DNA of 14,924 nt, from the NCBI GenBank assembly GCA_025455535.1, contig JALOMM010000008.1, positions 1 through 14,924 on the forward strand. The letters run 5' to 3'. The notes under the pieces are model-generated. The model had not been told where the DNA came from, did no database searches, and saw only the letters and a list, made by a program, of their open reading frames with translations. Of the stretch, positions 616 to 14,924 are shown piece by piece. Both the position numbers and the translations under genes were made by a program. The DNA comes from Bacteroidales bacterium (GTDB lineage: Bacteria; Bacteroidota; Bacteroidia; Bacteroidales; VadinHA17). Positions within the stretch are counted from its first letter, which is position 1. Each line of letters opens with the position of its first letter.

Positions 616-625
616 ACACTTTTAT

Positions 626-1945: not shown

Positions 1946-1954
1946 TACCAGAAA

Positions 1955-3025
1955 ATGAAAACAATTAATCAGCATACAATGAATCACTCAAGTCTATTTA
2001 CTGTTATTCTTACGGGTGCCATGATAATGACGGCATGCACACCAAAAGAGAAGCCTGCTGCAGCAATGACGGCAGAGACTGTCGCAGCAGCGCCGGTCAG
2101 GGTTATCCCTGTGTCAAAGACAATAATTGCCCGCACTATTGACTATACAGCTACCGTTCAGCCTTTTGAGGAGGTTAATATGGCTCCCTCGACACCCGGC
2201 AGGGTAGACAGGATATATGTCGAGGTGGGAGACAGGGTTCAGAAGGGGCAGCAGCTCTTCCTGATGGACCGCACGCAGTATTATACAAACAAGATCCAGC
2301 TGGCGAACCTCGAAAAGGATCTTGCAAGGATGGATACACTGCTCAAGGTCGGAAGCATCAAGGAGCAGACCTATGATCAGATGAAGGCTCAGTATGAAGT
2401 CATGAAGACCAATGTTGACTTCATGGAAGAGAATACGCTCCTCGAGGCACCCTTCACCGGGATAATTACCGGCAGGTATCTTGAAGAGGGAGAGCTCTAC
2501 TCAGGTGCTCCCTCAGCTTCGGGCAAGGCCGCTGTTGTCACACTCATGCAGATAAACCCTGTGAAGGTCATGGTCAGCGTTTCGGAGCAGAATTATCCGC
2601 TCATAAAGAATGGAATGAAGGCAAAAATCACCGCTGACGTCTATCCTGACAGGGAATTTGCCGGAAGAATATTCCGTGTTCATCCCACAATAGACCAGAT
2701 GTCAAGGTCATTCAGGGCTGAGATCGAGATACCGAACGGCAACGAGTTGCTGAGACCGGGCATGTTTGCACGTGTCTCGATTGACATGGGCCAGGCTGAA
2801 GCCTTTGTGGTACCGTCAAATGCCGTATTGATACAGGAAGGGACCAACGAGAGGTATCTTTTCGTGGTGAATGACGGCGTTGCTTTGCGGAAACCGGTCA
2901 GGCTGGGAAAGAGATTTGATGAGATGGTGGAGATTGCAGAGGGAGAGATCCGCGAAGGTGACAACCTTATTGTTGATGGTCAGGCACGCCTGACAGGCGG
3001 TCAGAGAGTGGAAATAGTAAAATAG
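1955..3025 (+). CDS. RND efflux membrane-fusion (periplasmic adaptor) lipoprotein
   Basis: Periplasmic adaptor linking the inner-membrane RND pump to the TolC-like channel. The 356-residue product starts with a hydrophobic signal and a lipobox-like M-T-A-C ending at Cys28, so it is probably lipid-anchored. Residues about 73-105 form the first half of the biotinyl/lipoyl-like domain (N-M-A-P-S-T-P-G-R-V, then V-G-D-R-V-Q-K-G-Q). A short helical hairpin follows at about 108-160, and the second lipoyl half is around E164-A-P-F-T-G-I. The beta-barrel region follows, with R-P-G-M-F-A-R-V near 267-274, then the membrane-proximal domain. The hairpin is short, as in many Bacteroidetes adaptors. ATG 1955 is used; an internal ATG (residue 9) would give a tighter signal peptide and is an alternative. 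It lies 9 bases after the TolC-like gene and 25 before the pump gene, consistent with one operon. Confidence 0.94.
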   Translation: MKTINQHTMNHSSLFTVILTGAMIMTACTPKEKPAAAMTAETVAAAPVRVIPVSKTIIARTIDYTATVQPFEEVNMAPSTPGRVDRIYVEVGDRVQKGQQLFLMDRTQYYTNKIQLANLEKDLARMDTLLKVGSIKEQTYDQMKAQYEVMKTNVDFMEENTLLEAPFTGIITGRYLEEGELYSGAPSASGKAAVVTLMQINPVKVMVSVSEQNYPLIKNGMKAKITADVYPDREFAGRIFRVHPTIDQMSRSFRAEIEIPNGNELLRPGMFARVSIDMGQAEAFVVPSNAVLIQEGTNERYLFVVNDGVALRKPVRLGKRFDEMVEIAEGEIREGDNLIVDGQARLTGGQRVEIVK

Positions 3026-3050
3026 TGTTTAATTTAAGATTCAGACCACA

Positions 3051-6000
3051 ATGAGTATATATGGCAGTGCAGTAAAGAAACCCGTAACCACGATACTGAT
3101 ATTCGTGATAACGATGGTTATGGGATTGTACTCGCTGACGCAGTTGTCCGTTGACCTGTATCCGGAGATCGAACTTCCGTTCCTTTCGGTATACACCAGT
3201 TACCCGGGTGCAAGTGCATCAGACATTGAAACTAATATAACGCGTCCTATTGAGGATGTGTTGAGCTCGGTAACAGGGTTAAAGGAGATGACCTCCACAT
3301 CCAGTGACAACGTCTCGGTTATATTCCTTCAGTTCGAGTATGAGACAAACCTTGATGAGGCATCAAACGACATTCGGAGTAACCTGTCCTTTATTAAGAA
3401 CTACCTTCCTGAAGAGGCTGAAGATCCAAACATTCTGAAATTCAATTCCGCCATGATGCCCATTGTCTTCTACGCCATCACGGCGCAGGAGAGCTATCAG
3501 GGCCTGGAGAAGATACTTGACGAAAAGGTGGTCAACCCCCTGAACCGCATAGAGGGTGTCGGAAGCGTTTCCCTTTCAGGTGTCCCGGGAAGGGAGATCT
3601 ACGTGGATGTCGATCCGCGCCGCATGGAGGCTTACAACCTTACCATTGAGCAGATAGGCAATGTACTGCGGGCAGAAAACATAAATATGCCGGCCGGATT
3701 CATTGAGATGGGGGCAACTGACTACCCGATACGGGTACAGGGAGAGTTTGAGGAGAGCGATATAATAAAGGACATTGTCGTTGGGAACTATGCCGGCAAT
3801 GATATACTCCTCAGCGATGTAGCTGTGGTAAAAGATACGATCAGGGAATCGAGGCTGATAGCGAAGATTAACGGGGAAAGGGGTATGGGCCTGTTTATTC
3901 AGAAGATGTCAGGCGCCAATACCGTTCAGGTTTGCCGTGATGCAGAAGCTGAACTGCAGAAGCTTCAGAAGGATCTTCCGCAGGATGTGAAGATCGAAAA
4001 GCTGTTTGACTCTGCGGAATTCATCAGCGGCTCAATAAATAACCTGACAGAGACACTGATGTATGCAGGCATCTTCGTTATCCTGGTGGTGCTGTTCTTC
4101 CTCGGCCGGTGGAGGGCTACATTTATAATTATTCTGACAATCCCGATCTCACTGGTCTTTGCCTTTATTTACCTGTTTATTTCCGGGAATTCGATAAATA
4201 TAATTTCTCTGTCGTCGCTCTCAATAGCAATAGGGATGGTGGTCGACGATGCCATTGTGGTTCTCGAGAACATAACGAAGCATATCGAACGGGGCAGCAG
4301 TCCGCGCGAAGCCGCCATTTATGCTACCAATGAGGTATGGCTGGCAGTTATTATTACCACACTTACCGTAGTGGCGGTATTTTTCCCGCTGACTTTCGTA
4401 ACGGGGCTCACCGGCGTGATGTTCTCACAGCTTGGGATGATCGTTTCAATTACAATCGTTGTATCGACCTTTGCTGCAATCACTCTCACGCCTACACTGG
4501 CTTCCAGGATGATGAGGCTGCGTCCGCTGAAAAAGGATGCTCCGATATATACGTGGGACGGTTCAGTACATAAGTTCCTGGAATGGATGGACGGTTTCTA
4601 CGTTAAATCGTTGAACTGGGCTGTACATCACAAAAGGTTCACGATTGCCATTGCTATCCTGGTGTTTGCAGGGTCAATGTCTCTCCTGAAATTTGTCGGC
4701 AAGGAGTTCATGCCTACCGCTGACGAGTCGAGGTGTACTGCTAACGTTGAACTGCAGACAGGTACCAGGGTTGATAATACTCTTGTTGTTGCCGACAGGA
4801 TTGATTCACTTGTAATGGCAACCGTACCTGAAGTAAAGCTGATCTCAACCAATACAGGGAATGATGACAGCGGCGGGTTCGCCTCAATATTCAGCCAGGG
4901 AGGGACACATGTAATCCAGTTTACATTTTCACTGGTCCCGGTAAGTGAGAGATCGAGAAATGTGGAGGAGGTGGCAGAAGCCATCAGGCAGATAATGGCG
5001 CCTATGCCCGAGATAGTCAACTATTCCGTCTCTACCACTGATGATATGAATATGGGCGGTATGGGCGGCAATACCGTCAACCTTGAGGTATACGGCTACG
5101 ATATTTCACAGACAAACCTTGTGGCTGAGGAACTGGCATCGAGGGTGAAGAATATCGAAGGGGCCACAAACGTGCAAATCAGCCGCAAAAGGTCAAAGCC
5201 CGAGCTTCAGATCATCTTCGATCATAAGAAGCTTATGACACACGGGCTTACAACAGCCCAGGCATCGGCAATGATAAAGAACAGGGTTGACGGGCTGACC
5301 GCCACCCGCCTCCGCCAGGCAGGCGATGAATATGATGTCGTTGTGCGCTATAAGGAGTCTGCACGTAACTCAATCACGGAAATAGAGAACATGGGTATTG
5401 TTACACCTGCGGGACAGGTGATAAGGCTGGGTGAGATAGCAGATGTCAGGGAAGCCTGGACCCCTCCAAATATTGAGAGAAAGCGCAAGGAACGCATCGT
5501 CACCGTTTCAGTCACACCTTATAAGAGATCTCTTAACCTTATTGTGGCTGACATCCAGAAAGAGCTGGATGAGGTGGCATTGCCATCGGGCGTAATGGTG
5601 GAGATATCGGGAGCCTTTGAAGATATGACAGAATCATTCATGGATATCGGGCTGCTGCTGGTTGTATCCCTGCTGCTTGTATATCTTGTTATGGCCTCCC
5701 AGTTCGAGTCACTGAAGATGCCGCTGATAATCATGCTTTCGATACCATTTGCTTTCAGCGGTGTTGCCATAGCTCTTTTCCTCTCCGGTGAAAGTCTGAA
5801 CCTTATTGCGGGTATCGGAGCGGTGATGCTCATCGGTATTGTCGTGAAGAATGCCATCGTGCTGGTTGACTTTATAAATCTGACACGTGACAGAGGGGTG
5901 GAGCTTTACGAGGCTGTTCTCATATCGGGAAGGTCAAGGCTCAGGCCGGTGCTCATGACCTCTCTTACAACCATCCTTGCCATGTTGCCGCTGGCAGTAA

Positions 6001-6191
6001 ATCCGGGGGAGGGCTCTGAGCTCTGGAGACCGATGGGTATAGCAGTCATCGGCGGCCTGGTCTTCTCCACCACGGTTACCATGATACTCGTTCCGGTGGG
6101 ATATGTACTCATGGCCCGCAGAGGTGAAAGAGATAAGAAACACAAGGTGGCATTCAGGGATATGAAGTTCCTTGATGACATAAAAGAGTAA
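3051..6191 (+). CDS. RND multidrug-type efflux transporter (HAE1 class, AcrB-like)
   Basis: Proton-driven inner-membrane exporter of 1046 residues, normal for the family. The N-terminus has the AcrB-like cytoplasmic start and first helix (V-K-K-P-V-T-T-I-L-I), then a large periplasmic loop with the P-G-A-S-A-S-D-I-E-T motif. Transmembrane helix 4 carries the paired aspartates D399 and D400 in G-M-V-V-D-D-A-I-V-V-L-E-N, and helix 10 carries K933 in G-I-V-V-K-N-A-I-V-L-V-D-F. These are the expected proton-relay residues, so the pump looks functional. The D-D-A pattern fits the HAE1 (drug/amphiphile) class rather than the heavy-metal HME class, which usually has a single aspartate (V-D-A-A). A glycine/methionine-rich loop (M-N-M-G-G-M-G-G) lies near residue 667. 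It follows the adaptor gene by 25 bases and precedes the PII-like gene by 18. The substrate is unknown. Confidence 0.96.
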   Translation: MSIYGSAVKKPVTTILIFVITMVMGLYSLTQLSVDLYPEIELPFLSVYTSYPGASASDIETNITRPIEDVLSSVTGLKEMTSTSSDNVSVIFLQFEYETNLDEASNDIRSNLSFIKNYLPEEAEDPNILKFNSAMMPIVFYAITAQESYQGLEKILDEKVVNPLNRIEGVGSVSLSGVPGREIYVDVDPRRMEAYNLTIEQIGNVLRAENINMPAGFIEMGATDYPIRVQGEFEESDIIKDIVVGNYAGNDILLSDVAVVKDTIRESRLIAKINGERGMGLFIQKMSGANTVQVCRDAEAELQKLQKDLPQDVKIEKLFDSAEFISGSINNLTETLMYAGIFVILVVLFFLGRWRATFIIILTIPISLVFAFIYLFISGNSINIISLSSLSIAIGMVVDDAIVVLENITKHIERGSSPREAAIYATNEVWLAVIITTLTVVAVFFPLTFVTGLTGVMFSQLGMIVSITIVVSTFAAITLTPTLASRMMRLRPLKKDAPIYTWDGSVHKFLEWMDGFYVKSLNWAVHHKRFTIAIAILVFAGSMSLLKFVGKEFMPTADESRCTANVELQTGTRVDNTLVVADRIDSLVMATVPEVKLISTNTGNDDSGGFASIFSQGGTHVIQFTFSLVPVSERSRNVEEVAEAIRQIMAPMPEIVNYSVSTTDDMNMGGMGGNTVNLEVYGYDISQTNLVAEELASRVKNIEGATNVQISRKRSKPELQIIFDHKKLMTHGLTTAQASAMIKNRVDGLTATRLRQAGDEYDVVVRYKESARNSITEIENMGIVTPAGQVIRLGEIADVREAWTPPNIERKRKERIVTVSVTPYKRSLNLIVADIQKELDEVALPSGVMVEISGAFEDMTESFMDIGLLLVVSLLLVYLVMASQFESLKMPLIIMLSIPFAFSGVAIALFLSGESLNLIAGIGAVMLIGIVVKNAIVLVDFINLTRDRGVELYEAVLISGRSRLRPVLMTSLTTILAMLPLAVNPGEGSELWRPMGIAVIGGLVFSTTVTMILVPVGYVLMARRGERDKKHKVAFRDMKFLDDIKE

Positions 6192-6209
6192 ACTTTAATA
6201 GGTATAGAA

Positions 6210-6503
6210 ATGAAAGCTGTAATGATAATATATAACCTGGCTCTTACCGAGAAGGTTGAATACACTCTTGAACACTTCGGCATCAGGGGATATACGCAAT
6301 GGGACAATGTGGAGGGAATGGGATCGAAAACCGGTGTTCCACATCTTGGTACTCACACATGGCCCGAGATAAACGGCGTAGTAATTACATTCGTCGAACC
6401 GGAAAAGGTGCCTCCTCTGCTTGAGGCTGTCAGGCGTATTGATGCCATCAACGAAGAGGTCGGCATCAGGGCGTTTGTCTGGGCCATTGAACAGGCAGTC
6501 TGA
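6210..6503 (+). CDS. PII-like small signalling protein linked to the RND pump
   Basis: A 97-residue cytoplasmic protein with the beta-alpha-beta, beta-alpha-beta layout of the PII superfamily. Strand M1-I-I-Y-N is followed by helix T13-E22, strand G-Y-T-Q-W, a loop at about residues 33-53 rich in Gly, His and Trp (ending H-L-G-T-H-T-W-P-E), strand G-V-V-I-T-F-V, helix L-L-E-A-V-R-R-I-D-A-I, and a final strand near R-A-F-V-W. It is shorter than canonical GlnB/GlnK (about 112 residues) and has no Tyr in the T-loop, so uridylylation as in enteric PII is not expected. It sits 18 bases after the pump gene and before the terminator, so it is almost certainly co-expressed. A divergent PII group (PII-NG) is known beside metal RND exporters; this may belong to it or be a separate PII-like branch. 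Role as sensor or allosteric modulator of the pump is inference. Confidence 0.75.
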   Translation: MKAVMIIYNLALTEKVEYTLEHFGIRGYTQWDNVEGMGSKTGVPHLGTHTWPEINGVVITFVEPEKVPPLLEAVRRIDAINEEVGIRAFVWAIEQAV

Positions 6504-6522
6504 AGCCTTGATTAATATGTCG

Positions 6523-6555
6523 CAGCGACGCCCCGCAATGGCGTCGCTGTTTTTT
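6523..6555 (+). terminator. Rho-independent terminator closing the efflux operon
   Basis: A perfect 10-base-pair GC-rich stem pairs 6523-6532 (CAGCGACGCC) with 6540-6549 (GGCGTCGCTG) across a 7-base loop, followed directly by six T residues (6550-6555). It lies 19 bases after the PII-like stop codon and points the same way as the operon. This is the strongest terminator in the window and separates the efflux unit from the downstream genes. Confidence 0.93.
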
Positions 6556-6662
6556 ATGCTATAAAACATAATTCAAGACCGCAAGTTTTTTGCTGCCCGC
6601 CTGTGTAAGGTTACTACAAGATTCCTCATTCATTTGCGGCGCCGGGACATATTCACTGAGGC

Positions 6663-6692
6663 TTTGCGATCTCCCATTATTGATTATTTTTG
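6663..6692 (+). promoter_or_regulatory. Bacteroidetes housekeeping-type promoter
   Basis: TTTG at 6663-6666 and TATTTTTG at 6685-6692 match the Bacteroidetes -33 (TTTG) and -7 (TAnnTTTG) consensus, with 18 bases between them. Transcription would start near 6698-6700, giving a leader of about 26 bases for the lipoprotein gene at 6726. Its place just after the operon terminator makes it a credible start for the next transcript, which may run through the sigma-factor module. Assignment rests on motif match only. Confidence 0.62.
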
Positions 6693-6725
6693 TATGGGGG
6701 ATAATTCCCAATAAAGAACCATACA

Positions 6726-7163
6726 ATGAGAAATCTGTCATTTGTTTTATTTGTTGTTTTTGGATTGGCAGCTGCTTCATGTGCTGACAATAAGAACAGC
6801 CAGAAGGTTACAGCATCGGAAAACACAGAAGCATCGTCAACAAAAGCAGCGCTTAGCCCTGAGCTTCAGGCAAAGTTAAGCTGGGTCGAAAAGGGCACTG
6901 AGTGCTACGGTATTGTCATCGGCTTCTTTGCTGATGGCAGCACCCTCGGTAAAGCTGTCAAGTGCAGGGTCATCGCCATAAAACCAGACAAGATCAAGAT
7001 GAAGACTGTTGAGAGTGTAAGCCTCCTTGAAGGAGAGGGCTGTGACAAGATGGGCCTTGCTTATGGCGATACCTGGTGGGAGGAGGAAGGTGATATCTTC
7101 AAGACCAGGGAAGAGGCTGAAGCATTCATCAGGGATAAGGGATGGGCCGGAAGGAAAAATTAG
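6726..7163 (+). CDS. Small hypothetical lipoprotein
   Basis: A 145-residue protein that I do not recognise. Residues 1-19 are a lipoprotein-type signal (M-R-N-L-S-F-V-L-F-V-V-F, then A-A-S-C19), so the mature product is probably anchored in the envelope facing the periplasm or the surface. A polar Ser/Thr/Lys/Glu linker covers about residues 21-42. The folded part (about 43-142) has a beta-rich look, with C60, C80 and C106, a G-I-V-I-G-F-F-A-D-G strand pair, a W-W-E-E-E-G acidic patch, and a terminal helix around R-E-E-A-E-A-F-I-R. Three cysteines in the mature domain could form a disulfide or bind a ligand. It has its own plausible promoter, and the sigma-factor gene starts 60 bases downstream with no terminator between, so the two may be co-transcribed. 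No function is proposed. Confidence 0.78.
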   Translation: MRNLSFVLFVVFGLAAASCADNKNSQKVTASENTEASSTKAALSPELQAKLSWVEKGTECYGIVIGFFADGSTLGKAVKCRVIAIKPDKIKMKTVESVSLLEGEGCDKMGLAYGDTWWEEEGDIFKTREEAEAFIRDKGWAGRKN

Positions 7164-7223
7164 CTGACATGCTAAAGGGGAGATGGCAATCATTCCTGTT
7201 TATTTATTTGTCGCCGGTCCGGG

Positions 7224-7829
7224 ATGAGTGACCAGGAGCTTATAAAAGCCATCATCAGGGGTGATAACAGTGCCATGAGGGAGCTCATAGGCAAGTATCA
7301 GGACCTGGTGCTGAATACCTGCTACAAGGTCTTGCGGTCACGCGAAGATGCCGAAGACATCTCACAGGAGGTCTTTATCGAAACATACAGGTCAGCCGCA
7401 GCCCTGAGATCTGAGGATGACATTTCATACTGGCTCTACCGGGTCTCACTCAATAAGTCGATAAACCACCTCAGGAAATCACAGAATATACTTTTTCGCT
7501 CACTCCTTCAGATAGAAGCCCTGTTCGGGCATAGTGACACTGCCGGCAGCCACCGTACTCCCATGTCTGATGATCACCCCGGAGATACTCTTGAATCAGC
7601 CGAGAGACAGGAGATGCTTGCCAGGGCTGTGGCTTCGCTGCCTGCAATGCAGCAGAAAGCATTTATCCTGCATCATTATGAAGATATGCCTTATAAGGAG
7701 ATCTGCCAGGTGCTTAACCTGTCACTCTCATCTGTAGAATCGTTGATTTTCAGGGCAAGGACCAGCCTGAAGAGAAAGTGCTGCCCGCCTTCAACGGATC
7801 AATTGCGTAACAAAAATCTCAAGATATGA
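7224..7829 (+). CDS. ECF-type RNA polymerase sigma factor
   Basis: Alternative sigma factor of 201 residues that would direct RNA polymerase to a small regulon, probably including the neighbouring metal-related genes. Region 2 spans about residues 24-86, with the characteristic R-E-D-A-E-D-I-S-Q-E-V-F segment (40-51) and a W-L-Y-R-V-S-L-N-K-S helix. Region 4 spans about 130-185, with S-L-P-A-M-Q-Q-K-A-F, then Y-K-E-I-C-Q-V-L-N-L-S and V-E-S-L-I-F-R-A-R as the helix-turn-helix. There is no region 1.1 or 3. The linker between regions 2 and 4 (about 100-125) is rather long and contains several His and Asp residues. The stop codon overlaps the start of the next gene by four bases (ATGA), which indicates tight co-expression with the periplasmic sensor-like protein. 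Family call is firm; target promoters are unknown. Confidence 0.93.
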   Translation: MSDQELIKAIIRGDNSAMRELIGKYQDLVLNTCYKVLRSREDAEDISQEVFIETYRSAAALRSEDDISYWLYRVSLNKSINHLRKSQNILFRSLLQIEALFGHSDTAGSHRTPMSDDHPGDTLESAERQEMLARAVASLPAMQQKAFILHHYEDMPYKEICQVLNLSLSSVESLIFRARTSLKRKCCPPSTDQLRNKNLKI

Positions 7830-8353
7830 TACCTGAAAGAATCAACAGGATTTTAATGTGGCTCAATCTGGTGTTGCTGCTCATCATCACCTCTGCCGTT
7901 GTCACCTTTCTGATAATGAGATCATCATCCTCCGGACGCCAGATTACCGATCCGGTAGCCATGAACTCTATGGAGATGCTCCGGACTGAACTGGGACTGA
8001 ATGCAGAACAATACCGGAAGGTGCTTGTGGAGAACGACCGTACTCTCAGGACTTACAATCTCGTGCTTGACATGATGTGCGAGACCAACGTTGCTATGAT
8101 TGAAGAGCTTGCCCGGCCTGAGTCTGACCCGGCAGTTCTTGACAGCCTGGCAAAAAAAATCGGCGTGCTGAACACATCACTCAGAAGACATACGAGTGAC
8201 TATTTCGTCAACCTGAAGGCTATCTGCAACGATGACCAGCAGCAGAAGCTGACCCTCATCTTCAAACAGATGATGCAGCTCGAACAGCAGTGTGAGACTT
8301 GTAATAAAATTGATTGTCCGCGGAGAGAACGAATTAACAATCTCGGAAAATAA
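7826..8353 (+). CDS. Membrane-anchored periplasmic sensor-like protein (CnrX/Spy-like)
   Basis: A 175-residue protein with a short cytoplasmic start, one transmembrane helix (about residues 11-31), and a helical periplasmic domain. The domain opens with L-G-L-N-A-E-Q-Y-R-K-V and later has N-D-D-Q-Q-Q-K-L-T-L-I-F, two segments in the positions of the L-T-x-x-Q-type motifs of the Spy/CpxP/CnrX (periplasmic heavy-metal sensor) fold. H122 lies in the third helix, where CnrX-type proteins place a metal ligand. The C-terminus is cysteine-rich (C156, C159, C164, with C85 and C134 further in), a natural site for a soft metal ion or disulfide switch. Its ATG overlaps the sigma stop in ATGA, so translation is probably coupled. 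By analogy with CnrX it could sense a periplasmic metal and control the sigma factor. Fold call is moderate; metal sensing is inference. Confidence 0.72.
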   Translation: MIPERINRILMWLNLVLLLIITSAVVTFLIMRSSSSGRQITDPVAMNSMEMLRTELGLNAEQYRKVLVENDRTLRTYNLVLDMMCETNVAMIEELARPESDPAVLDSLAKKIGVLNTSLRRHTSDYFVNLKAICNDDQQQKLTLIFKQMMQLEQQCETCNKIDCPRRERINNLGK

Positions 8354-8437
8354 TTTTCATCATGCCGCAGGTTTAGGTCATCAAAGTTGTCTTTTTAGTA
8401 TACGCATGTTATTTGATTAACAGTAAAACACAGACCC

Positions 8438-8773
8438 ATGTCAGATTATATTTCAGAAATATCCGGGGAGATGCGAAAGGAGAGGATAACAGCTCCTGAC
8501 TGCTTTGCCGACGATATCATGAAGAGGATAGCCGTCGAGAAGCGCGGAGGACTGGAAGCTATGTCAGCCACTTCCCGTATTATTCTTTTTGCGATGATAT
8601 TTGTCGTTTACTCCTCACTTGGGGTCCTGGTTGGAATACAGGGCTATAAAAACCTGTCCCCGGGCAACCATTCGAAGTTCAAAGGCGCACTGGAGGAACT
8701 GATGGATACTCACCACCTTAGTCCTGACGCCATGCAGGATCAGCTATTCAGGCATTTTTACCCCGCAAACTAA
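8438..8773 (+). CDS. Single-pass membrane protein, candidate small anti-sigma factor
   Basis: A 111-residue protein with a cytoplasmic N-terminal segment of about 45 residues, one transmembrane helix (about 46-68, from R-I-I-L-F-A-M-I-F-V) and a short periplasmic tail of about 40 residues containing H78, H92, H93 and H106. The segment A-P-D-C-F-A-D-D-I-M-K-R-I (19-31) resembles the short amphipathic stretch at the N-terminus of many Bacteroidetes membrane anti-sigma-like proteins. There is no visible zinc-binding H-x3-C-x2-C motif. Topology and size are close to those of CnrY, the anti-sigma factor that pairs with CnrX and CnrH. It follows the sensor-like gene by 84 bases and precedes the 4Fe-4S gene by 27, so it may be the first gene of the downstream operon. 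Function is an inference from topology and context. Confidence 0.6.
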   Translation: MSDYISEISGEMRKERITAPDCFADDIMKRIAVEKRGGLEAMSATSRIILFAMIFVVYSSLGVLVGIQGYKNLSPGNHSKFKGALEELMDTHHLSPDAMQDQLFRHFYPAN

Positions 8774-8800
8774 ATCATAACTACTTTCTATACTCAAACC

Positions 8801-10735
8801 ATGAAAAAACAGAACTGGTACAAACTGATATATCAATTTGCGATTATCGGCATACTGACCTTTATGGGTTTCCGCCTTCTATTTGACAAAGCCTATGCCC
8901 CTGATTTCGAGGCATATTGTCCTTTTGGCGGAATACAAGCCCTCGGAAGCTACCTCACCATGGACTCATTGTCATGTTCAATGACAAGCACCCAGATAAT
9001 GATGGGTGTGGTCTTGTTTATAGGCATAGTGCTTTTCTCGAGACTCTTCTGCGGATATATCTGTCCGTTAGGCACCATCAGTGAGTGGATTGGAAAGCTG
9101 GGCGACAGGCTGAAAGTGAGAATTACTCCCACTGGCTGGATCGATTACGCGCTTCGTTTCTTTAAATACGCCATTTTATTTCTGACATTTTATTATACAC
9201 TGAAGTCAAGCGAGCTCTTCTGCAAGAAATTCGATCCGTATTATGCGGTAGCTTCAGGATTCGACTCTGACGTTTCTCTGCTATGGGCATTGCTGGCTAT
9301 CGTCGCTCTCGTGCTGGGGTCATTCTTCATGAGGCTATTCTGGTGCCGTTACCTCTGTCCGCTCGGAGCCCTGTCTGCGATTTTTAAATTCTCATACTGG
9401 TTCCTGGGTGTGATGGCGCTATACGTCATCCTCCTTCTTGCAGGACTTGACATTCCTTATCTCTATCCCCTGATAGTGATAACAGCCGGAGGCTACATCC
9501 TTGAGATCATAAGGATGAAAAAGGTACGGCCTGATCCGGTCCATATCACACGCAACACAGACAGCTGTATTGATTGTGGTCTGTGCTCGGTAAAGTGCCC
9601 CCAGGGTATTGATGTTGCCAACATGGTCAAGGTGACCCATACAGACTGTACCCTGTGCGGTGATTGCCTCTATGCCTGCCCCGAGAAAAACACCCTTCAG
9701 ATTAACAGGAAGAACATGAAATGGCTCCCGGGTCTGGTGCTCGGACTGCTTATAATACTGGGAATAGTTGCAGGCACACTCTTCGAGTTGCCAACCATTG
9801 CTCAGAAATGGGGTACCCCTGAGCAGATTGAGTCAGCAGGAGTGTTCGAAATGAGCGGACTGAAAAACATCAAGTGTTTCGGCAGCTCTACAGCCTTTGC
9901 CAACCAGATGCGAAAAGTAAACGGAATCTACGGTGTTTCAACATATGTTGCCAGCCATAGCGTACACATTCTCTATGATACAACCATGTACGATGATGTA
10001 AAGCTCCAGAATCTTTTGTTTGTGCCCGAAAAGAGAATAATCAGCAGCGTGGCCAAAGAGGTCGATTCCGTAACATACTATACCCTTACCGTCGATAAGT
10101 TCTTTGATCCGCTTGATGCAACATACCTTCAGCACCTGCTCGACCAGAAGACTGAGGCATGCGGTTACCAGAGCGACTTTGCCTGTCCGGTCATCATACG
10201 GATATATTTCCCTGCCGGGAGTGAACCGGATAAGGAGACGCTTGTGAAGGCGATTGAGTCGAAGAACCTCAGTTTTACATCCAACGGCAACGATTTCAGC
10301 GTCAAGCTGCCATATAAGGTTATTACATTTGATGAGCCTGCCGTGAAAATATCGAAGAGAGATTATGCAGAACAGATGTTCACCCCCACTGTGTCACATT
10401 TTAACGGATATTCAAAGTATACACCGGATGTGATAATGCAGTATGTACTCCGGTTGGGAGCAAACGCCTCTCTTAAGGCACGATACAGCTATCTTATTAG
10501 CCACCTTTCAAATGACAAGGGTGTTGTCGGGTTCGAGACTTCACTTGATTCGGCAGGTGCCGAGATCGGGTCTGTAATGTTTATTGATTCACTGACAACG
10601 GCTGAGCGGATATTCACCTCCGTCAACGCTGATACCTTGCTCTTCCACTATTCAGACGGACGGACAGGAAAGCTCGCCAATCCTTTCTCCTTCCCGGACC
10701 AGGGAACAATTCTGCAGCTCACAGATAACCGATAA
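8801..10735 (+). CDS. Polytopic 4Fe-4S membrane protein (NapH/NosR/CcoG-like) with HMA-like C-terminal domain
   Basis: An inner-membrane electron-transfer protein of 644 residues. The membrane part (about 1-240, roughly six helices) carries the family motifs: C40-P-F-G-G, F-C84-G-Y-I-C88-P-L-G, and W-C182-R-Y-L-C186-P-L-G. Two ferredoxin-type clusters follow, with C256, C259, C262, C266 and C283, C286, C289, C293. A further helix at about 309-326 leads to a C-terminal region of about 315 residues, far longer than NapH. Residues about 348-408 (M-S-G-L-K-N-I-K-C359, then a helix and V-S-T-Y-V-A-S-H-S-V-H-I-L-Y) look like a heavy-metal-associated ferredoxin fold with only one of the usual two cysteines. 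The remaining region is unrecognised. It probably moves electrons across the membrane to a periplasmic acceptor such as a metal; that is inference. The stop lies inside a 7-base tandem repeat, 22 bases before the ABC ATPase gene. Confidence 0.88.
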   Translation: MKKQNWYKLIYQFAIIGILTFMGFRLLFDKAYAPDFEAYCPFGGIQALGSYLTMDSLSCSMTSTQIMMGVVLFIGIVLFSRLFCGYICPLGTISEWIGKLGDRLKVRITPTGWIDYALRFFKYAILFLTFYYTLKSSELFCKKFDPYYAVASGFDSDVSLLWALLAIVALVLGSFFMRLFWCRYLCPLGALSAIFKFSYWFLGVMALYVILLLAGLDIPYLYPLIVITAGGYILEIIRMKKVRPDPVHITRNTDSCIDCGLCSVKCPQGIDVANMVKVTHTDCTLCGDCLYACPEKNTLQINRKNMKWLPGLVLGLLIILGIVAGTLFELPTIAQKWGTPEQIESAGVFEMSGLKNIKCFGSSTAFANQMRKVNGIYGVSTYVASHSVHILYDTTMYDDVKLQNLLFVPEKRIISSVAKEVDSVTYYTLTVDKFFDPLDATYLQHLLDQKTEACGYQSDFACPVIIRIYFPAGSEPDKETLVKAIESKNLSFTSNGNDFSVKLPYKVITFDEPAVKISKRDYAEQMFTPTVSHFNGYSKYTPDVIMQYVLRLGANASLKARYSYLISHLSNDKGVVGFETSLDSAGAEIGSVMFIDSLTTAERIFTSVNADTLLFHYSDGRTGKLANPFSFPDQGTILQLTDNR

Positions 10736-10751
10736 CTGATAACTGACAACT
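10724..10751 (+). repeat. Four-copy 7-bp tandem repeat (GATAACT type)
   Basis: Four consecutive heptamers run GATAACC, GATAACT, GATAACT, GACAACT. They cover the last codons and stop of the 4Fe-4S gene and nearly the whole gap to the ABC ATPase start at 10758. The unit is not a multiple of three, so gain or loss of a copy would shift the reading of the extreme C-terminus and change the spacing before the next start codon. Confidence 0.85.
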
Positions 10752-10757
10752 ATTCCA

Positions 10758-11642
10758 ATGTACGCAATTGAGTGTAAAAACCTGACCCACTATTACGGCA
10801 AGAAGATGGTTTATGAGAACCTGAGCTTCAATGTGGAGGAGGGCAAGATACTGGGTCTTCTGGGTAAAAACGGCACCGGGAAGTCGACTACAATAAACAT
10901 CCTCAACGGTTTCCTCCAGCCATGTGCCGGGGAGTGTCTCATCTACGGAGAGAACACCCAGCTTCTTACTCCTGAGACAAAGAGAAGAATAGGATTCCTG
11001 ATCGAAGGACATGTCCAGTATACCTTTATGAATATTCATCAGATCGAGAAGTTTTACTCCGGCTTCTATGAAGGATGGAACAGTGCACCCTACTGGGAGC
11101 TGATGTCAAAGCTGAAGGTAACTCCGAAGCAGAAGATATCGAGTATGTCATGCGGCCAGCGGTCACAGGTTGCCCTGGGGCTCATCCTTGCACAGAACCC
11201 TGACCTGCTGATACTCGATGACTTCTCGATGGGGCTCGATCCGGGCTATCGCAGGCTCTTCATAGACTATATGCGTGAGTATGCCAAGGCAGAACATAAA
11301 ACTGTCTTTGTGACATCGCATATCATACAGGATATGGAGAGACTGATCGATGACGTGATGATAATGGATTATAATAAGATACTCGCGCAGCAGCCCATAG
11401 GTCAGTTCATGAATACCTTCAGGCAATTCAATATTTCACTTGCCGATCATAATGCAGCTGTTGACCTTGACGGCATCGCGGTGAATATTGAAAGGGTGAA
11501 AGACAAGATTGAGTTCTACACCTATTCAACTGAAGAGGATGTAAAGGGATATCTTAAAATGAAAGGTATCGGTTATAACAGTTTCGAAGAGGTAAAAATG
11601 TCACTTGAGGATGCTTTCATAGGACTGACACGCAAATATTAA
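10758..11642 (+). CDS. ABC transporter ATP-binding protein
   Basis: Cytoplasmic ATPase subunit of 294 residues that should power the six-helix permease encoded next. The Walker A motif is G36-K-N-G-T-G-K-S-T44. The H-loop is H188 in F-V-T-S-H-I-I-Q-D. Two core motifs are unusual: the signature reads M-S-C-G-Q (130-134) where L-S-G-G-Q is normal, and Walker B reads L-L-I-L-D-D-F (150-156), giving Asp155 where the catalytic Glu usually stands and Phe for Pro. The D-loop (G-L-D-P) is intact. After about residue 215 there is a C-terminal extension of about 80 residues. The nearest general type is the single-domain export ATPase group (NosF-like, bacitracin-type); close relatives in Bacteroidetes accompany DUF4857 proteins. 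ATG 10758 is the only sensible start. The permease gene begins 14 bases downstream. Substrate and direction are unknown. Confidence 0.92.
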   Translation: MYAIECKNLTHYYGKKMVYENLSFNVEEGKILGLLGKNGTGKSTTINILNGFLQPCAGECLIYGENTQLLTPETKRRIGFLIEGHVQYTFMNIHQIEKFYSGFYEGWNSAPYWELMSKLKVTPKQKISSMSCGQRSQVALGLILAQNPDLLILDDFSMGLDPGYRRLFIDYMREYAKAEHKTVFVTSHIIQDMERLIDDVMIMDYNKILAQQPIGQFMNTFRQFNISLADHNAAVDLDGIAVNIERVKDKIEFYTYSTEEDVKGYLKMKGIGYNSFEEVKMSLEDAFIGLTRKY

Positions 11643-11656
11643 AAGGGATCGCTGAT

Positions 11657-12325
11657 ATGTTTAAATCGATTATATACAAAGAGTGGATAAAGATCAGGCT
11701 CATAGTGCTGATCTCTTTAGGATTAAGCCTGCTGGCTCTGATCAATATTTTTCTGAAGGTGAGGCATGACATCCTGTTTGTCGACGCCGCCAATTACTGG
11801 TACTCATTCCTTTTCAGGGGCAGTACCTATTTCGGAATCCTGAAATACCTCCCTTTTGCCATCGGGCTTGCAGTTGCAATTGCTCAGTACATTCCTGAGA
11901 CGGTCAACAAAAGGATAAAACTGACATTTCACCTGCCTGTCTCTGAGAATGGTATACTGATAAGGATGCATGCGTTCGGAGCGGCTGTTCTGGTGACTCT
12001 TTTCCTGGTTGTCATGGGCCTGTTCACTGCCGGAAGTGCAATTTTCTTTCCGTCGAATATCATAAATCCGTCACTTGTCACAATGACTCCCTGGTTCCTG
12101 GGCGGGATGGCCACTTATTTTCTTGTTGCCCTGATACTGCTCGAGCCGGTATGGATCTACCGCGGACTCTATGCAGTGGTTGCCGCAGGCTTTGTTACTC
12201 TCTTTTACACAAGTGCGTCAATAGGGGCATTCAGACCTGTGCTTCCTGCCTTGATTTTAATTACTGTATTGTTGAGTTTTGTGGTTCTGTTCTCAGGTTA
12301 TAGATTTAGGAAAGGGGAAATGTAA
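11657..12325 (+). CDS. ABC transporter permease subunit (six-helix, NosY-like)
   Basis: Integral membrane protein of 222 residues with six hydrophobic helices (about 15-34, 60-78, 105-130, 146-165, 170-186, 195-213). The N-terminus, K-S-I-I-Y-K-E-W-I-K-I-R, is the amphipathic start common in ABC-2 type permeases that use a separate ATPase. A cytoplasmic loop between helices 2 and 3 reads P-E-T-V-N-K-R-I-K-L-T-F-H-L-P and is the likely coupling region to the ATPase. The start is preceded by a purine-rich AAAAGGGA stretch, one of the better ribosome-binding sites here. It follows the ATPase gene by 14 bases and ends one base before the preferred start of the DUF4857-like gene, so the three are almost certainly one transcript. 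Function as membrane partner of the ATPase is well supported; cargo is not. Confidence 0.85.
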   Translation: MFKSIIYKEWIKIRLIVLISLGLSLLALINIFLKVRHDILFVDAANYWYSFLFRGSTYFGILKYLPFAIGLAVAIAQYIPETVNKRIKLTFHLPVSENGILIRMHAFGAAVLVTLFLVVMGLFTAGSAIFFPSNIINPSLVTMTPWFLGGMATYFLVALILLEPVWIYRGLYAVVAAGFVTLFYTSASIGAFRPVLPALILITVLLSFVVLFSGYRFRKGEM

Positions 12326-12326
12326 T

Positions 12327-13574
12327 ATGATAAAGATTAGCAGATATATACTGGTTCTGACAGCTGTGCTTGTGGCTTCTATAGCTCTTCCGGCATTTTA
12401 CTGGACTGTCTTTGAGAAGGTGCCCAGGTCACCGCAGATATACTATAGTTGTGTTACCGGTGATTTTATTATTGCTGATGGAAACAAGCGCACTGACCCT
12501 TCAGGTAAGGAGTTCACCCTTGACGAATACGAGAGGGCACTTCCCTTGCTGTATTTCCGTCAGCTGATGGCAGACGGCGAAATGCCTGACTCGATCCACG
12601 GAATAAAGCTGGAGGCTCCCTCAATTAGCAGGGCTTCATCATTCTACCGGTATACACCACGTAAACTGAAAACACCGGTACCGACACTCTATCCTATGCT
12701 CGAATCACAGAGCGGAAAGGTCAACCTGGCAATGCCTGATGATTACTTCCGGATAGAAAAGAGGATGGAATTTATCGTAGCCAAAACAAACAGGATCAAC
12801 GAAGAAAAGAGTGCGCTGTTCACTGACGCTCTCATCGAAGAGGGTTTCGTTTTCCCCGCAAAGATAATAGCAGGCATCCCCACTACCCGTAAGTCTGTTG
12901 ACGAAGGATACTTCGTGACCGACTCCGGGGGCTCATTATTCCATGTCAAAATGATAAAGGGAGAGCCATATGTCGTAAGGATCGAAACGGAGGAAAAACT
13001 GGACATAGTTTATATTGAGGCCGTTGACCTGAGAAGCAGGGAGTTCTATTGCTATGTTTTCACCAAAAATCAGGGTATCTTTGTGGTAATGGATGAGGTT
13101 TATGACCTGCAGAGACTGCCTGTAGACGGATTTAATCCGGAGATCCATACTTTCAGGATCAATGCAGATCTCTTCAATAAATGTATAACAGTCCTGGGTG
13201 AGAACTGGTACCAGGCAATAGCTGTTGATGACATGTACAAGGTCGTGGGAACCCATTACGAAGAGTGGAGCGGTCTCTATGAAAGAGCTGAGGGCAAGGC
13301 CTTTGCATCAATCTTCCCGTTTGAGATAAGGATGAAGGATGACAACTCGGCCTTTATACGGTTTTTCTTCAGGCCCTCACCGGGTTACAGGTGGATAATA
13401 GTCAACCTTGTCGCACTTATCATTGCCTTTATCATGATCAGAAGAAGGGGATGGGCCATCGGAGCCAACATCGCTGACCTGCTGATAGTAGGCATTACTG
13501 GCATTTATGGTCTTGCGGCAACACAGTTCTTTCCGAATAAGTTTACGGTAAATAAACAGCCAAACAACAAATAA
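12327..13574 (+). CDS. DUF4857-like membrane protein linked to the ABC transporter
   Basis: A 415-residue protein that I match to the DUF4857 type from its overall pattern and neighbours. I chose ATG 12327, one base after the permease stop and preceded by AAAGGGGAAA, because the in-frame TTG at 12279 would overlap the permease gene and add a polar 16-residue leader before the first helix. Residues about 6-27 form one transmembrane helix, residues about 30-350 a large periplasmic domain, and residues about 356-372 and 382-399 two closing helices separated by R-R-R-G-W. The N-terminal periplasmic part contains the segment L-D-E-Y-E-R-A-L-P-L-L-Y-F-R-Q-L (65-80) and P-D-S-I-H-G, which look like the most family-specific stretch. 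There are only a few cysteines and no obvious cofactor motif. It may be the periplasmic partner of the ABC pair. Biochemical role is unknown. Confidence 0.72.
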   Translation: MIKISRYILVLTAVLVASIALPAFYWTVFEKVPRSPQIYYSCVTGDFIIADGNKRTDPSGKEFTLDEYERALPLLYFRQLMADGEMPDSIHGIKLEAPSISRASSFYRYTPRKLKTPVPTLYPMLESQSGKVNLAMPDDYFRIEKRMEFIVAKTNRINEEKSALFTDALIEEGFVFPAKIIAGIPTTRKSVDEGYFVTDSGGSLFHVKMIKGEPYVVRIETEEKLDIVYIEAVDLRSREFYCYVFTKNQGIFVVMDEVYDLQRLPVDGFNPEIHTFRINADLFNKCITVLGENWYQAIAVDDMYKVVGTHYEEWSGLYERAEGKAFASIFPFEIRMKDDNSAFIRFFFRPSPGYRWIIVNLVALIIAFIMIRRRGWAIGANIADLLIVGITGIYGLAATQFFPNKFTVNKQPNNK

Positions 13575-13581
13575 CGGTACC

Positions 13582-14924
13582 TTGAAAAAGCTACTATCAA
13601 TATTCATTATGCTTCTTGCCGGGCTTACCCTCACTGCCCAGACGAAGCATTCCATGCAGGGTAAGGTAATCTGCAAGACTACCGACGAGCCGGTAATGAT
13701 GGCGACGGTGGTAATCAAGGAGCTGAATATCTGGGCAACGACAAATGAGGCAGGTGATTTTGAACTGAAAAATGTCCCGGCCGGCACCTATACCATCGTT
13801 GTTTCATGCCTGGGCTTTATTCAGCGTGAAGAGACCATCTCATTCCCCCTTAAGTCAGCTAAGACCAATATCCTGATTGACGAGGCGACCCTTGCCATCG
13901 ATGATGTGGTTGTCACCGCCAAGGAGGGAAGGAGGCTTGCTTCAGGCTCGATGATTGAGCAGGCCGCCATCCAGCATGTCCAGCCCACTGACCTGTCAGA
14001 TGTGATGCAGCTTCTGCCCGGACAGATAACGCAAAATCCTGATCTCTCAAGGCCTAAGCAGTTAACCATCAGAGAGATCATTACCGAAGACGGTTACGGA
14101 GCCGACAACATGGCAAGCCTGGGCACACTGTTGATTGTCGACGGTGCTCCCGTCTCCAATGATGCCAATATGCAGTTCCTGAAAACGACCAGTGCTTCGA
14201 CAGGGGTAACGGCCAGTTTTTCTACTACAGCTTCCGGTGGTACTGACGTCAGGCAGATACCGGTTGATAATATTGAGACCATCGAAGTAGTAAGGGGTAT
14301 AGCCGGGGTCGAGAACGGAGATATGCTGAGCGGGGCTGTAAAGGTCACCCTGAAAAAGGGTCAGACACCATTCACCGCAAAGATCAAGATTGACCCGGCC
14401 ATAAAACAGTTTTATACCGGGAAGGGATTCAACCTGGGCGAAAAGGCCGGAATCATCAACCTCGATTTTGACTTTACACAGTCTTTTGATGATATCAGGG
14501 TAAGATACAAGACATTCAACAGGCTGAATGCAGGGGTGATCTGGAACAATACTTTTTTCAAGACAGGAAGACCGCTGACGCTGAGCCTGTCAACCAGGGC
14601 ATCGCAGACAATCGATATCAGCAAGAATGATCCTGACATGCTCGAAATTGAAGAGTATGAAGCCAATGAGAAGGGTCTTGCAATGAACCTGAACGGTAAA
14701 TGGGCACTTAATTCACTGCTGCTGACCAATCTCAATTTCATGGTGTCAGGTAATATTCAGCACCAGGTAGGGCACCAGCTTGAACTTGAGGAAATACCAT
14801 CAGGAGCTCAGCCCCAGCCTGTTGCACTTGAACCTGGCGAAAATGAGGTACCCATTCTCCCTTCATCTTATCTGAGCGATCTTACAATAGACGGGAAGCC
14901 GTATTATTTTGACAGCAAACTTTC
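13582..14924 (+). CDS. TonB-dependent outer-membrane receptor (5' part, cut by window end)
   Basis: The first 447 codons of an outer-membrane receptor that takes up a bulky or scarce ligand with energy from TonB. The reading frame stays open to the last base. I start it at TTG 13582 because this gives an ideal signal peptide (M-K-K-L-L-S-I-F-I-M, ending L-T-A-Q at residue 20, a cleavage site typical of Bacteroidetes); no ATG nearby does so well. Residues about 24-105 form a carboxypeptidase-regulatory-like beta domain (V-I-C-K-T-T-D-E-P-V, N-E-A-G-D-F-E-L, P-A-G-T-Y-T-I-V-V). A TonB-box-like D-D-V-V-V-T-A lies at 107-113. The plug follows to about residue 260, with L-L-I-V-D-G-A-P-V and I-P-V-D-N-I-E-T-I-E-V-V-R-G. 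The beta barrel starts near 265. It lies 7 bases after the DUF4857-like gene. The ligand cannot be told from this portion. Confidence 0.9.
   Translation, partial: MKKLLSIFIMLLAGLTLTAQTKHSMQGKVICKTTDEPVMMATVVIKELNIWATTNEAGDFELKNVPAGTYTIVVSCLGFIQREETISFPLKSAKTNILIDEATLAIDDVVVTAKEGRRLASGSMIEQAAIQHVQPTDLSDVMQLLPGQITQNPDLSRPKQLTIREIITEDGYGADNMASLGTLLIVDGAPVSNDANMQFLKTTSASTGVTASFSTTASGGTDVRQIPVDNIETIEVVRGIAGVENGDMLSGAVKVTLKKGQTPFTAKIKIDPAIKQFYTGKGFNLGEKAGIINLDFDFTQSFDDIRVRYKTFNRLNAGVIWNNTFFKTGRPLTLSLSTRASQTIDISKNDPDMLEIEEYEANEKGLAMNLNGKWALNSLLLTNLNFMVSGNIQHQVGHQLELEEIPSGAQPQPVALEPGENEVPILPSSYLSDLTIDGKPYYFDSKL

Follow-up and report, generated by a model that had tools for sequence, protein, structure and literature searches.

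Why do genes for an ECF sigma factor, a CnrX-like sensor, a polytopic 4Fe-4S protein, an ABC transporter and a TonB-dependent receptor stand in one row in a genome from a little-studied group of Bacteroidales? The stretch in question, referred to here as the window, is a complete contig of 14,924 bases from a genome of 61.88% completeness. The full-text literature scarcely mentions DUF4857 and DUF4876, two families of this gene set, and DUF6850, a third, was not found in it; in gut and oral Bacteroidetes, loci with DUF4857 and DUF4876 are among the genes that respond strongly to iron, according to the available text of one study (PMC10434189). With a sigma factor of its own and a periplasmic sensor that carries cysteines, the gene set appears to turn on a two-membrane machine whose probable task is to import and reduce an iron compound.

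The eight genes are the interior of a larger conserved operon

Checking the open reading frames and domains of the window, we found a tightly spaced block on one strand (7224-14924) with intergenic distances of -4, 84, 27, 22, 14, 1 and 7 bases (Table 1), in agreement with the eight consecutive genes, their order and the short gaps described by the first-pass annotation. Its boundaries proved too narrow, since the conserved set also takes in a putative lipoprotein gene upstream (lip, 6726-7163) and, in relatives, three genes downstream of the receptor: DUF4876, which follows it, DUF6850 and a HEAT/C25-like gene. The window itself stops inside the receptor gene, which is open at the 3' contig end (14924). 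Pfam matches upheld the labels for sigma70 regions 2 and 4, Fer4_5/Fer4, ABC_tran, DUF4857 and CarbopepD_reg_2 with Plug; the CnrX-like, single-pass, permease and HMA labels are weaker. For lip, whose conserved residues include the signal-peptide C19, we obtained no Pfam family and no credible PDB relative.

Table 1. Coordinates and supporting evidence of the operon features in the window
Feature	Coordinates	Strand	Evidence
lip, putative lipoprotein, 145 aa	6726..7163	+	first conserved gene of set; directly 5' of sigma gene in 10/10 long close loci
SIG, ECF sigma factor, 201 aa	7224..7829	+	Sigma70_r4_2 7.4e-17, Sigma70_r2 5.5e-15 (Pfam)
CNRX, membrane-anchored periplasmic sensor, CnrX/Spy kind, 175 aa	7826..8353	+	Cys85/156/159/164
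ECF-type promoter, CCGCAGGTTT / 12-nt spacer / TTGTCTTTTTA	8365..8397	+	predicted from motif
ANTI, single-pass membrane protein, 111 aa, probable anti-sigma factor	8438..8773	+	one TM, ~43-70
FES, polytopic 4Fe-4S protein, 644 aa, HMA-like C-terminal region	8801..10735	+	Fer4_5 1.5e-12, Fer4_10 3.2e-07 (Pfam)
FES two 4Fe-4S motifs, residues 249-299	9545..9697	+	C256/259/262/266, C283/286/289/293
FES HMA-like domain, residues 345-413, single conserved Cys359	9833..10039	+	CopA match and modelled fold order
ABC, ATPase, 294 aa	10758..11642	+	ABC_tran 8.7e-22 (Pfam)
PERM, permease-like membrane protein, 222 aa	11657..12325	+	hydrophobic segments
DUF4857 protein, 415 aa	12327..13574	+	PF16149 3.5e-84
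TONB, TonB-dependent receptor, 3' cut by contig end	13582..14924	+	CarbopepD_reg_2 2e-20, Plug 1.2e-09

A search with DUF4857 returned 14 loci; four of them (L009, L020-L022) lie on short or cut contigs and were left out of the order count, and all ten of sufficient length show nine genes in order. In distant genomes the set is retained at about 35-50% protein identity, even with the two transport blocks swapped, and this retention through re-ordering supports the functional linkage previously proposed. Across the order we counted the neighbours of 54 DUF4857 loci (58 DUF4857 rows minus the window and the sub-cut-off G510, with two second copies merged), finding ABC in 49, PERM in 48, TONB in 35 and DUF4876 in 34; as only same-strand neighbours were counted, opposite-strand receptors such as those of L102 and L107 are not included. 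PepSY was present in 20 of these loci, FES in six and both in none, against about two expected, a weak signal. Outside the order, L024 and L025 carry both FES and PepSY.

Scattering of the genes among relatives had been named beforehand as an observation that would speak against a common system. It was seen for FES, which occurs without DUF4857 in 33 of 42 FES-bearing genomes of the order and stands alone at 13 of the 20 places fetched for neighbourhood analysis (45 in total). It was not seen for the regulatory genes: all five DUF4857 loci with a close CnrX-like protein also carry the sigma, anti-sigma and lipoprotein genes.

A sigma factor, a four-cysteine sensor and a promoter restricted to the operon

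SIG scored 97.1 bits against the sigma70-ECF model TIGR02937 (cut-off 42.9). The CnrX/Spy-like nature of CNRX emerged at the family level: a 16-member profile searched against solved structures gave NccX (4clv) as its best match (E 0.0025), and Metal_resist was detected in 11 and LTXXQ in seven of the 16 members. The CNRX sequence alone reached 20.5 bits against Metal_resist, below the 29.2 cut-off, and a profile of nine close relatives retrieved no CnrX chain from the PDB. A four-Cys signature was present in 10/10 operon members and in 0/6 non-operon homologues, the latter from six loci taken from many. Nothing points to Ni or Co, the metals that the first-pass annotation named for CnrYXH; what distinguishes the operon sensors is this signature. 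Across 393 genomes of the order, seven sensor matches reached 160 bits or more, the window's own among them, and all seven fall in DUF4857-bearing genomes.

ANTI gave no meaningful Pfam match and no credible PDB relative. Its positional equivalents were recognised by HMM in L059-L063 and L065, four of them bearing an HxxxCxxC motif, and Pfam zf-HC2 matched these motif-bearing proteins only at E 0.029. ANTI is probably a shortened relative of the HxxxCxxC-type (class I) anti-sigma factors, as judged from sequence.

The predicted ECF-type promoter precedes the anti-sigma gene in 9/9 close loci with a fixed spacer, and a related form does so in 5/5 distant loci, the motif having been derived from the same loci in which it was counted. 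Scanning the window's genome with the close form (up to three mismatches) gave five sites, one of them exact, and 12 in a backwards control; scanning six genomes with the distant form (up to one mismatch) gave 18 sites, eight exact, with eight in the control. All eight exact distant-form sites fall inside the operon, and G514 (L059) is without one. Among 296 upstream windows of the same loci, 18 scored at least 14.0, every one preceding ANTI or its equivalent, lip (L060, L065) or two genes of the L094 triad locus. The scores were 12.0 for both L018 and L019; at 11.2, L059 stood close above the next window, an unrelated one (10.7), so its promoter is marginal.

Some ECF-CnrX triads elsewhere (L095-L097) also have the distant form ahead of their anti-sigma gene; these belong to one genus and therefore provide a single line of independent support; the site was absent from L093 and L098, two of the six non-operon triads examined. 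Exact sites for a second ECF promoter lie 5' of lip in three of five distant operons. Upstream of lip in the window's clade there is at most a degenerate resemblance, and we do not claim a second promoter. A broader SIG regulon was rejected: exact sites are confined to the operon, and we treated mismatched sites as chance; the genome being 61.88% complete, SIG targets may be missing from it. The promoter before ANTI and its restriction to the operon favour the ECF control proposed by the first-pass annotation, and this regulatory half is the firmest part of our reading.

A distinctive 4Fe-4S protein precedes the transport block

The Cys motifs of the two FES clusters are invariant in 47/47 aligned proteins. 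Curated models nevertheless place FES outside the named families: it scored 26.5 bits against TIGR02745 for CcoG (RdxA/FixG; cut-off 316.7), 38.5 against NosR (cut-off 1000) and 51 against NapH/MauN (cut-off 213). All three assignments were rejected, among them the CcoG type that the first-pass annotation had brought in for comparison. The HMA-like label stands as a candidate assignment, suggested by a weak sequence match of residues 353-409 to CopA (1p6t; E 0.0093) and by a beta-alpha-beta-beta-alpha-beta order in a low-confidence model (whole-FES mean pLDDT 69.2, pTM 0.46). A CopA-like CxxC site was rejected, just one Cys being conserved, and a fold search of FES gave no match at E 0.001 or better. 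Some FES loci adjoin S46, S9 or M16 peptidases, and at L121 FES and lip adjoin cytochrome and sulphur-transport genes.

Downstream, PERM had no meaningful Pfam match and is fused to DUF4857 in L028. The DUF4857 model (mean pLDDT 89.8) comprises one N-terminal TM helix, a beta-rich domain and two C-terminal TM helices; its fold search yielded partial propeller matches only (TM-scores about 0.17-0.27), with no convincing global match. TONB is full length, about 962 aa, in L010 and other relatives, where a C25/HEAT gene lies 3' of it. Neither the window nor any long close locus encodes a PepSY membrane protein; a PepSY_TM protein is encoded elsewhere in the window's genome, on C160.

Proposed mechanism and alternatives

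We propose, with a probability of roughly 0.55, that the operon imports a metal complex, ferric in the likeliest case, by a TonB-coupled route involving reduction, and does so under an ECF circuit of its own. ANTI, in the membrane, would hold SIG; CNRX, with an inner-membrane anchor and a helical domain in the periplasm, would sense a periplasmic ligand through its four cysteines, and SIG would be freed. SIG would read its promoter and turn on ANTI, as feedback, along with FES, ABC, PERM, DUF4857, TONB and the later genes. TONB would bring the metal complex into the periplasm, and FES may pass electrons outward from 4Fe-4S clusters in the cytoplasm to the periplasm, where its HMA-like Cys domain would help it to reduce or receive the metal; PepSY proteins are proposed to do this in comparable loci. 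ABC, PERM and DUF4857 could move the freed metal or ligand, or couple ATP to release of the cargo. Iron is the most likely metal by analogy with the published annotation of a similarly composed, iron-responsive locus (PMC10434189); the metal link of the first-pass annotation holds to that extent, that locus being of the PepSY type and likened by annotation.

An unlikely alternative is handling or detoxification of copper or another thiophilic metal, with the CNRX thiols binding a Cu(I)-like ion, the HMA-like Cys of FES keeping the metal reduced and the ABC machine delivering or expelling it. NosR-NosDFY and CcoG offer copper-handling parallels. The four operon-specific cysteines, the kinship of the sensor to NccX/CnrX, the HMA-like match to a copper ATPase and the weak FES scores with the NapH, NosR and CcoG models would all suit this explanation, but the HMA-like domain conserves one Cys alone, the operon contains no CopA, CusA or NosZ-like gene, and loci of similar make-up rise under iron starvation in the published data available (PMC10434189).

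We consider it improbable that the genes form a periplasmic redox or cofactor system in which FES exports reducing power, CNRX reads thiol state, and the receptor and peptidase-like genes import peptide- or haem-bound cargo needing reduction. The relation of the sensor to Metal_resist argues against it, as does the fact that the set lacks any thioredoxin- or DsbD-like gene; the thiol-only signature, the many solitary FES genes, the peptidases next to FES, the C25/HEAT gene after the receptor and the setting of L121 argue for it. Chance adjacency of the ECF-CnrX triad, the 4Fe-4S gene and the ABC-TonB block is very improbable: FES and ECF-CnrX triads each occur apart from DUF4857 too, but the set survives re-ordering at low identity, the promoter heads the uptake genes and the strong sensor matches (7/7) keep to DUF4857 genomes.

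Returning to reductive metal uptake, we put forward more tentatively that the machine may be a new one, in which the usual place of PepSY reductases is taken by a transmembrane 4Fe-4S protein whose periplasmic tail is HMA-like (possibly three tandem folds) and whose partners are an ABC-DUF4857 complex and a TonB receptor. Control would lie with CnrX sensors of a new branch, reading metal or redox state via four thiols and commanding a sigma factor that has one operon as its recognisable target. Testable roles are thereby offered for DUF4857, DUF4876 and the membrane 4Fe-4S/HMA-like family. Because one survey found just 6% of the ECF sigma factors of Bacteroidetes to have a linked class I anti-sigma factor (PMC7406223), a sigma/anti-sigma/sensor set whose promoter can be recognised and whose clear target is a single operon would make a tractable Bacteroidetes model.

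Comparison with known systems

With the CcoG/NosR/NapH polyferredoxins, FES shares a membrane domain of the Fer4_5 family and a pair of 4Fe-4S motifs, but it falls far below their curated cut-offs and has an HMA-like periplasmic tail. CnrYXH/NccYXH likewise combine an ECF sigma factor, a one-pass anti-sigma candidate and a membrane-anchored, NccX-related sensor, whereas our operon has a four-Cys sensor, distant ANTI members with the class I HxxxCxxC motif, and linkage to TonB uptake genes in place of an efflux pump. CnrX-type circuits are classically induced by metal excess, which fits efflux better than scavenging and so speaks against our uptake reading. Features of the FecI/FecR/FecA type were missing from the window, with no FecR beside the sigma gene and no signalling domain in the receptor (CarbopepD_reg_2 and Plug); FecR is present in one distant relative, L026.

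Among iron systems, XusABC has a TonB transporter and, in the inner membrane, a proposed ferric-siderophore reductase, a function suggested for PepSY proteins beside TonB transporters (PMC13142918). It relies on a PepSY protein together with a lipoprotein at the surface and, as described in the available text, has no ABC-DUF4857, 4Fe-4S protein or ECF set, unlike the operon (PMC13142918). PG1019-1022 of P. gingivalis, induced 21-215-fold in low iron, and BT1933-39 share a TonB receptor with DUF4876 and low-iron induction, and BT1933-39 also shares a HEAT protein with relatives of the operon; both are annotated without ABC-DUF4857, the 4Fe-4S protein or the ECF set (PMC10434189).

The nearest counterpart is BT3625-BT3633 of B. 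thetaiotaomicron, 36.7-128-fold up in low iron and, in the same source, otherwise uncharacterised (PMC10434189). By published annotation, not by sequence, it shares DUF4857, a hypothetical protein, an ABC ATPase, DUF4876 and a TonB receptor, and L101, L103, L110, L111 and L117 have a similar gene order. Two PepSY proteins stand there in place of the 4Fe-4S protein, and its annotation lists no ECF-CnrX-anti-sigma set (PMC10434189). Contrary to the first-pass view of a candidate undescribed system, the transport half is not wholly undescribed, since it resembles this published locus; the regulatory set and the 4Fe-4S protein set the operon apart.

Gene set and its conservation

Gene calls and Pfam searches confirmed that the eight genes listed in the first-pass annotation are all real, lie on a single strand and are tightly spaced; they encode an ECF sigma factor (SIG), a CnrX/Spy-like periplasmic sensor (CNRX), a single-pass probable anti-sigma factor (ANTI), a polytopic 4Fe-4S membrane protein (FES), an ABC ATPase (ABC), a permease-like protein (PERM), a DUF4857 protein and a TonB-dependent receptor (TONB). 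A ninth gene, lip, belongs to the conserved set. The window is one whole contig of 14,924 bases from a genome that is 61.88% complete, with Bacteroidales or Bacteroidetes MAGs as its nearest named relatives, and its end cuts TONB, which encodes a full receptor of ~962 residues in relatives. Three further genes lie 3′ of TONB in the 10 loci extending there (L010, L012–L020).

Features of the operon, its relatives and the ECF-CnrX triads
Feature	Location	Strand	Description
lip	6726-7163		Putative lipoprotein, 145 aa; ninth gene, upstream of the eight
Gene after TONB in relatives			DUF4876 lipoprotein (PF16215, 3e-41)
Further gene 3′ of TONB in relatives			DUF6850 protein (1.4e-64)
Further gene 3′ of TONB in relatives			717-aa protein with HEAT repeats; C25-peptidase match below the cut-off
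Triad site	L095:1163	(-)	Near-identical promoter before anti-sigma gene
Triad site	L096:7745	(-)	Near-identical promoter before anti-sigma gene
Triad site	L097:2197	(+)	Near-identical promoter before anti-sigma gene

Using the DUF4857 protein as query, we obtained 14 genome-contig loci, 10 of them long enough to show the block, and all 10 kept the order lip-SIG-CNRX-ANTI-FES-ABC-PERM-DUF4857-TONB. Proteins of two relatives, L018 and L019, were 44–77% identical to those of the window (ANTI, 26–27%), the ANTI of L018 being missed by tblastn and found by HMM. Four distant operons (L060, L061, L062 and L065; 34–50% identity, ABC 71–73%, ANTI detected by HMM only) have the order lip-SIG-CNRX-ANTI-FES-TONB-DUF4876-DUF6850-ABC-PERM-DUF4857, with one extra gene between FES and TONB in some and DUF4876 not called in L065. 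Survival of the set through this re-ordering speaks for a functional link. Some partners are separable, FES occurring mostly without DUF4857. Upstream, window positions 1–6503 carry a TetR-TolC-MFP-RND-PII block, whose PII-like gene belongs to the PG0541 family; parts of it precede the operon in L010–L017. No such block precedes the L019 operon, nor did any turn up in the sequence surrounding L060–L065; little upstream sequence is available for L018.

A candidate ECF promoter

The sequence points to a dedicated ECF promoter of the operon, a new and testable element. The 84-bp CNRX-ANTI gap holds CCGCAGGTTT-N12-TTGTCTTTTTA at 8365–8397, and both blocks are conserved in the window and L010–L017 (9/9), with a spacer of variable sequence and fixed length. 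The same gap holds a diverged copy in L018 and L019 and CGCCAGATTT-N11-nCGTC in five distant operons (L060–L063 and L065); a marginal site in L059, which has a different gene order, likewise lies immediately 5′ of ANTI. In the window's own genome a single site matches the close motif exactly, the other four sites having 3 mismatches, and exact matches to the distant motif number 8 across 6 genomes, 8/8 in the operon (5 before ANTI, 3 before lip); as the motifs were derived from the loci in which they were counted, these counts describe restriction to the operon, not independent discovery. Support independent of the motif-training loci comes from ECF-CnrX triads of one genus (L095–L097), in which CCGCAAGTTT-N12-TTGTCTT lies 5′ of the anti-sigma gene and the fetched stretch contains no DUF4857 operon, a hint that ECF-CnrX sets form a broader family within the order. 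Motif scoring gave no promoter site in triads L093 and L098.

Another triad, L094, has a weaker promoter copy before its anti-sigma gene and another before a nearby gene. This second ECF-type site, a good one (score 18.6), precedes a 182-aa gene (ORF start 10572, reversed locus), which the sigma factor of the locus may also target.

Anti-sigma factor and sensor

Pfam returned nothing informative for ANTI. An ANTI HMM recovers equivalents from the distant operons, four with HxxxCxxC, a signature used for zinc-type class I anti-sigma factors (PMC7406223); Pfam zf-HC2 itself reached no better than E 0.029, in one of two tested equivalents. The single CNRX sequence scores under the Metal_resist cut-off, and a profile from 9 close relatives found no CnrX chain. 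With a 16-member family profile, NccX was the top match (E 0.0025), and CnrX chains (E 0.1–0.6) and ZraP (0.24) appeared amid unrelated matches; Metal_resist matches 11 of the members and LTXXQ 7. In the 16-member alignment, Cys85, Cys156, Cys159 and Cys164 are present in 10/10 operon members and 0/6 others, whereas Cys134 shows the reversed pattern, being present in 6/6 non-operon members and lost from two operon members. Within the CnrX/Spy kind, the operon's sensor forms a branch that carries thiols, and this four-cysteine branch is new and testable. CNRX relatives occur in 123/393 genomes of the order; the 7 that reach 160 bits or more, counting the window, come without exception from DUF4857-bearing genomes.

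Transport half and FES

The same-strand neighbours of 54 DUF4857 loci in the order were ABC (49), PERM (48), TONB (35), DUF4876 (34), DUF6850 (30), PepSY (20), FES (6) and CNRX (5). FES and PepSY never occurred together in these loci (0/54; about 2 expected if independent). Both are present in L024 and L025, outside the order, so replacement of PepSY by FES is a tendency only. The transport half is a widespread module in which a 4Fe-4S protein can occupy the usual place of PepSY proteins; recognising this is again new and testable. PERM and DUF4857 form one 680-aa ORF in L028 (4007–6049, (-)). In a distant relative (L026:1-4889), a sigma-like gene and FecR lie 5′ of the TonB receptor, so regulators of the module may have been swapped. 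Elsewhere in the window's genome, another contig encodes a 545-aa PepSY_TM protein (G000:C160:4455-5957).

The DUF4857 model (mean pLDDT 89.8) comprises a single TM helix at the N terminus, two helices at the C terminus and a beta-rich domain; its fold matches were to propellers and partial only. The two four-cysteine 4Fe-4S motifs of FES and its CxxxCP motifs are kept unchanged by 47/47 aligned proteins, and Cys359 is the single invariant cysteine of its HMA-like domain. In a structure model whose overall confidence is low, the C-terminal half of FES contains three beta-alpha-beta-beta-alpha-beta stretches; hydropathy and charge suggest that the clusters lie inside and the tail outside.

At E 1e-60, FES was found in 42/393 genomes of the order, 9 of which have DUF4857. 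Among 20 fetched of 45 FES places, 13 carried none of the set's other strong markers, and L125, L135 and L138 had FES with TonB-DUF4876-DUF6850 and without an ABC of the operon's family. In L121, lip adjoins FES; there (3296–10185) the pair has another setting, beside cytochrome c, cytochrome b561 and two Sulf_transp/rhodanese genes. Peptidase genes also occur near FES: by Pfam, S46 in L125 and S9 in L135, and, by eye only, an S46-like gene in L138–L140.

Which metal

The first-pass annotation proposed an ECF-controlled envelope system for metal uptake and reduction; its observation was right and its interpretation right in part, with function and metal both predicted for this operon. Copper instead of iron is a serious rival because of the sensor thiols and the HMA-like fold of FES. 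A CnrX-type switch responsive to metal excess would be a better fit to efflux than to scavenging.

On the metal, published iron-starvation data offer the best lead. As reported in one study (PMC10434189), low iron raised Bacteroides thetaiotaomicron BT3625-33, annotated as DUF4857, hypothetical, ABC ATPase, two PepSY, fimbrillin, two DUF4876 and TonB receptor, 36.7–128-fold, PG1019-22 (DUF4876, TonB) 20.8–214.5-fold and BT1933-39 (HEAT, DUF4876, TonB) 3.5–7.4-fold. Hemin supply lowers a Porphyromonas gingivalis DUF4876 protein along with HmuY and flavodoxin (PMC10470040), and a proteome table lists PG1019 with the latter two (PMC12119571). Ferric siderophore reduction is the role proposed for PepSY inner-membrane proteins beside TonB transporters (PMC13142918). 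In this operon, FES would fill the slot of such a PepSY protein.
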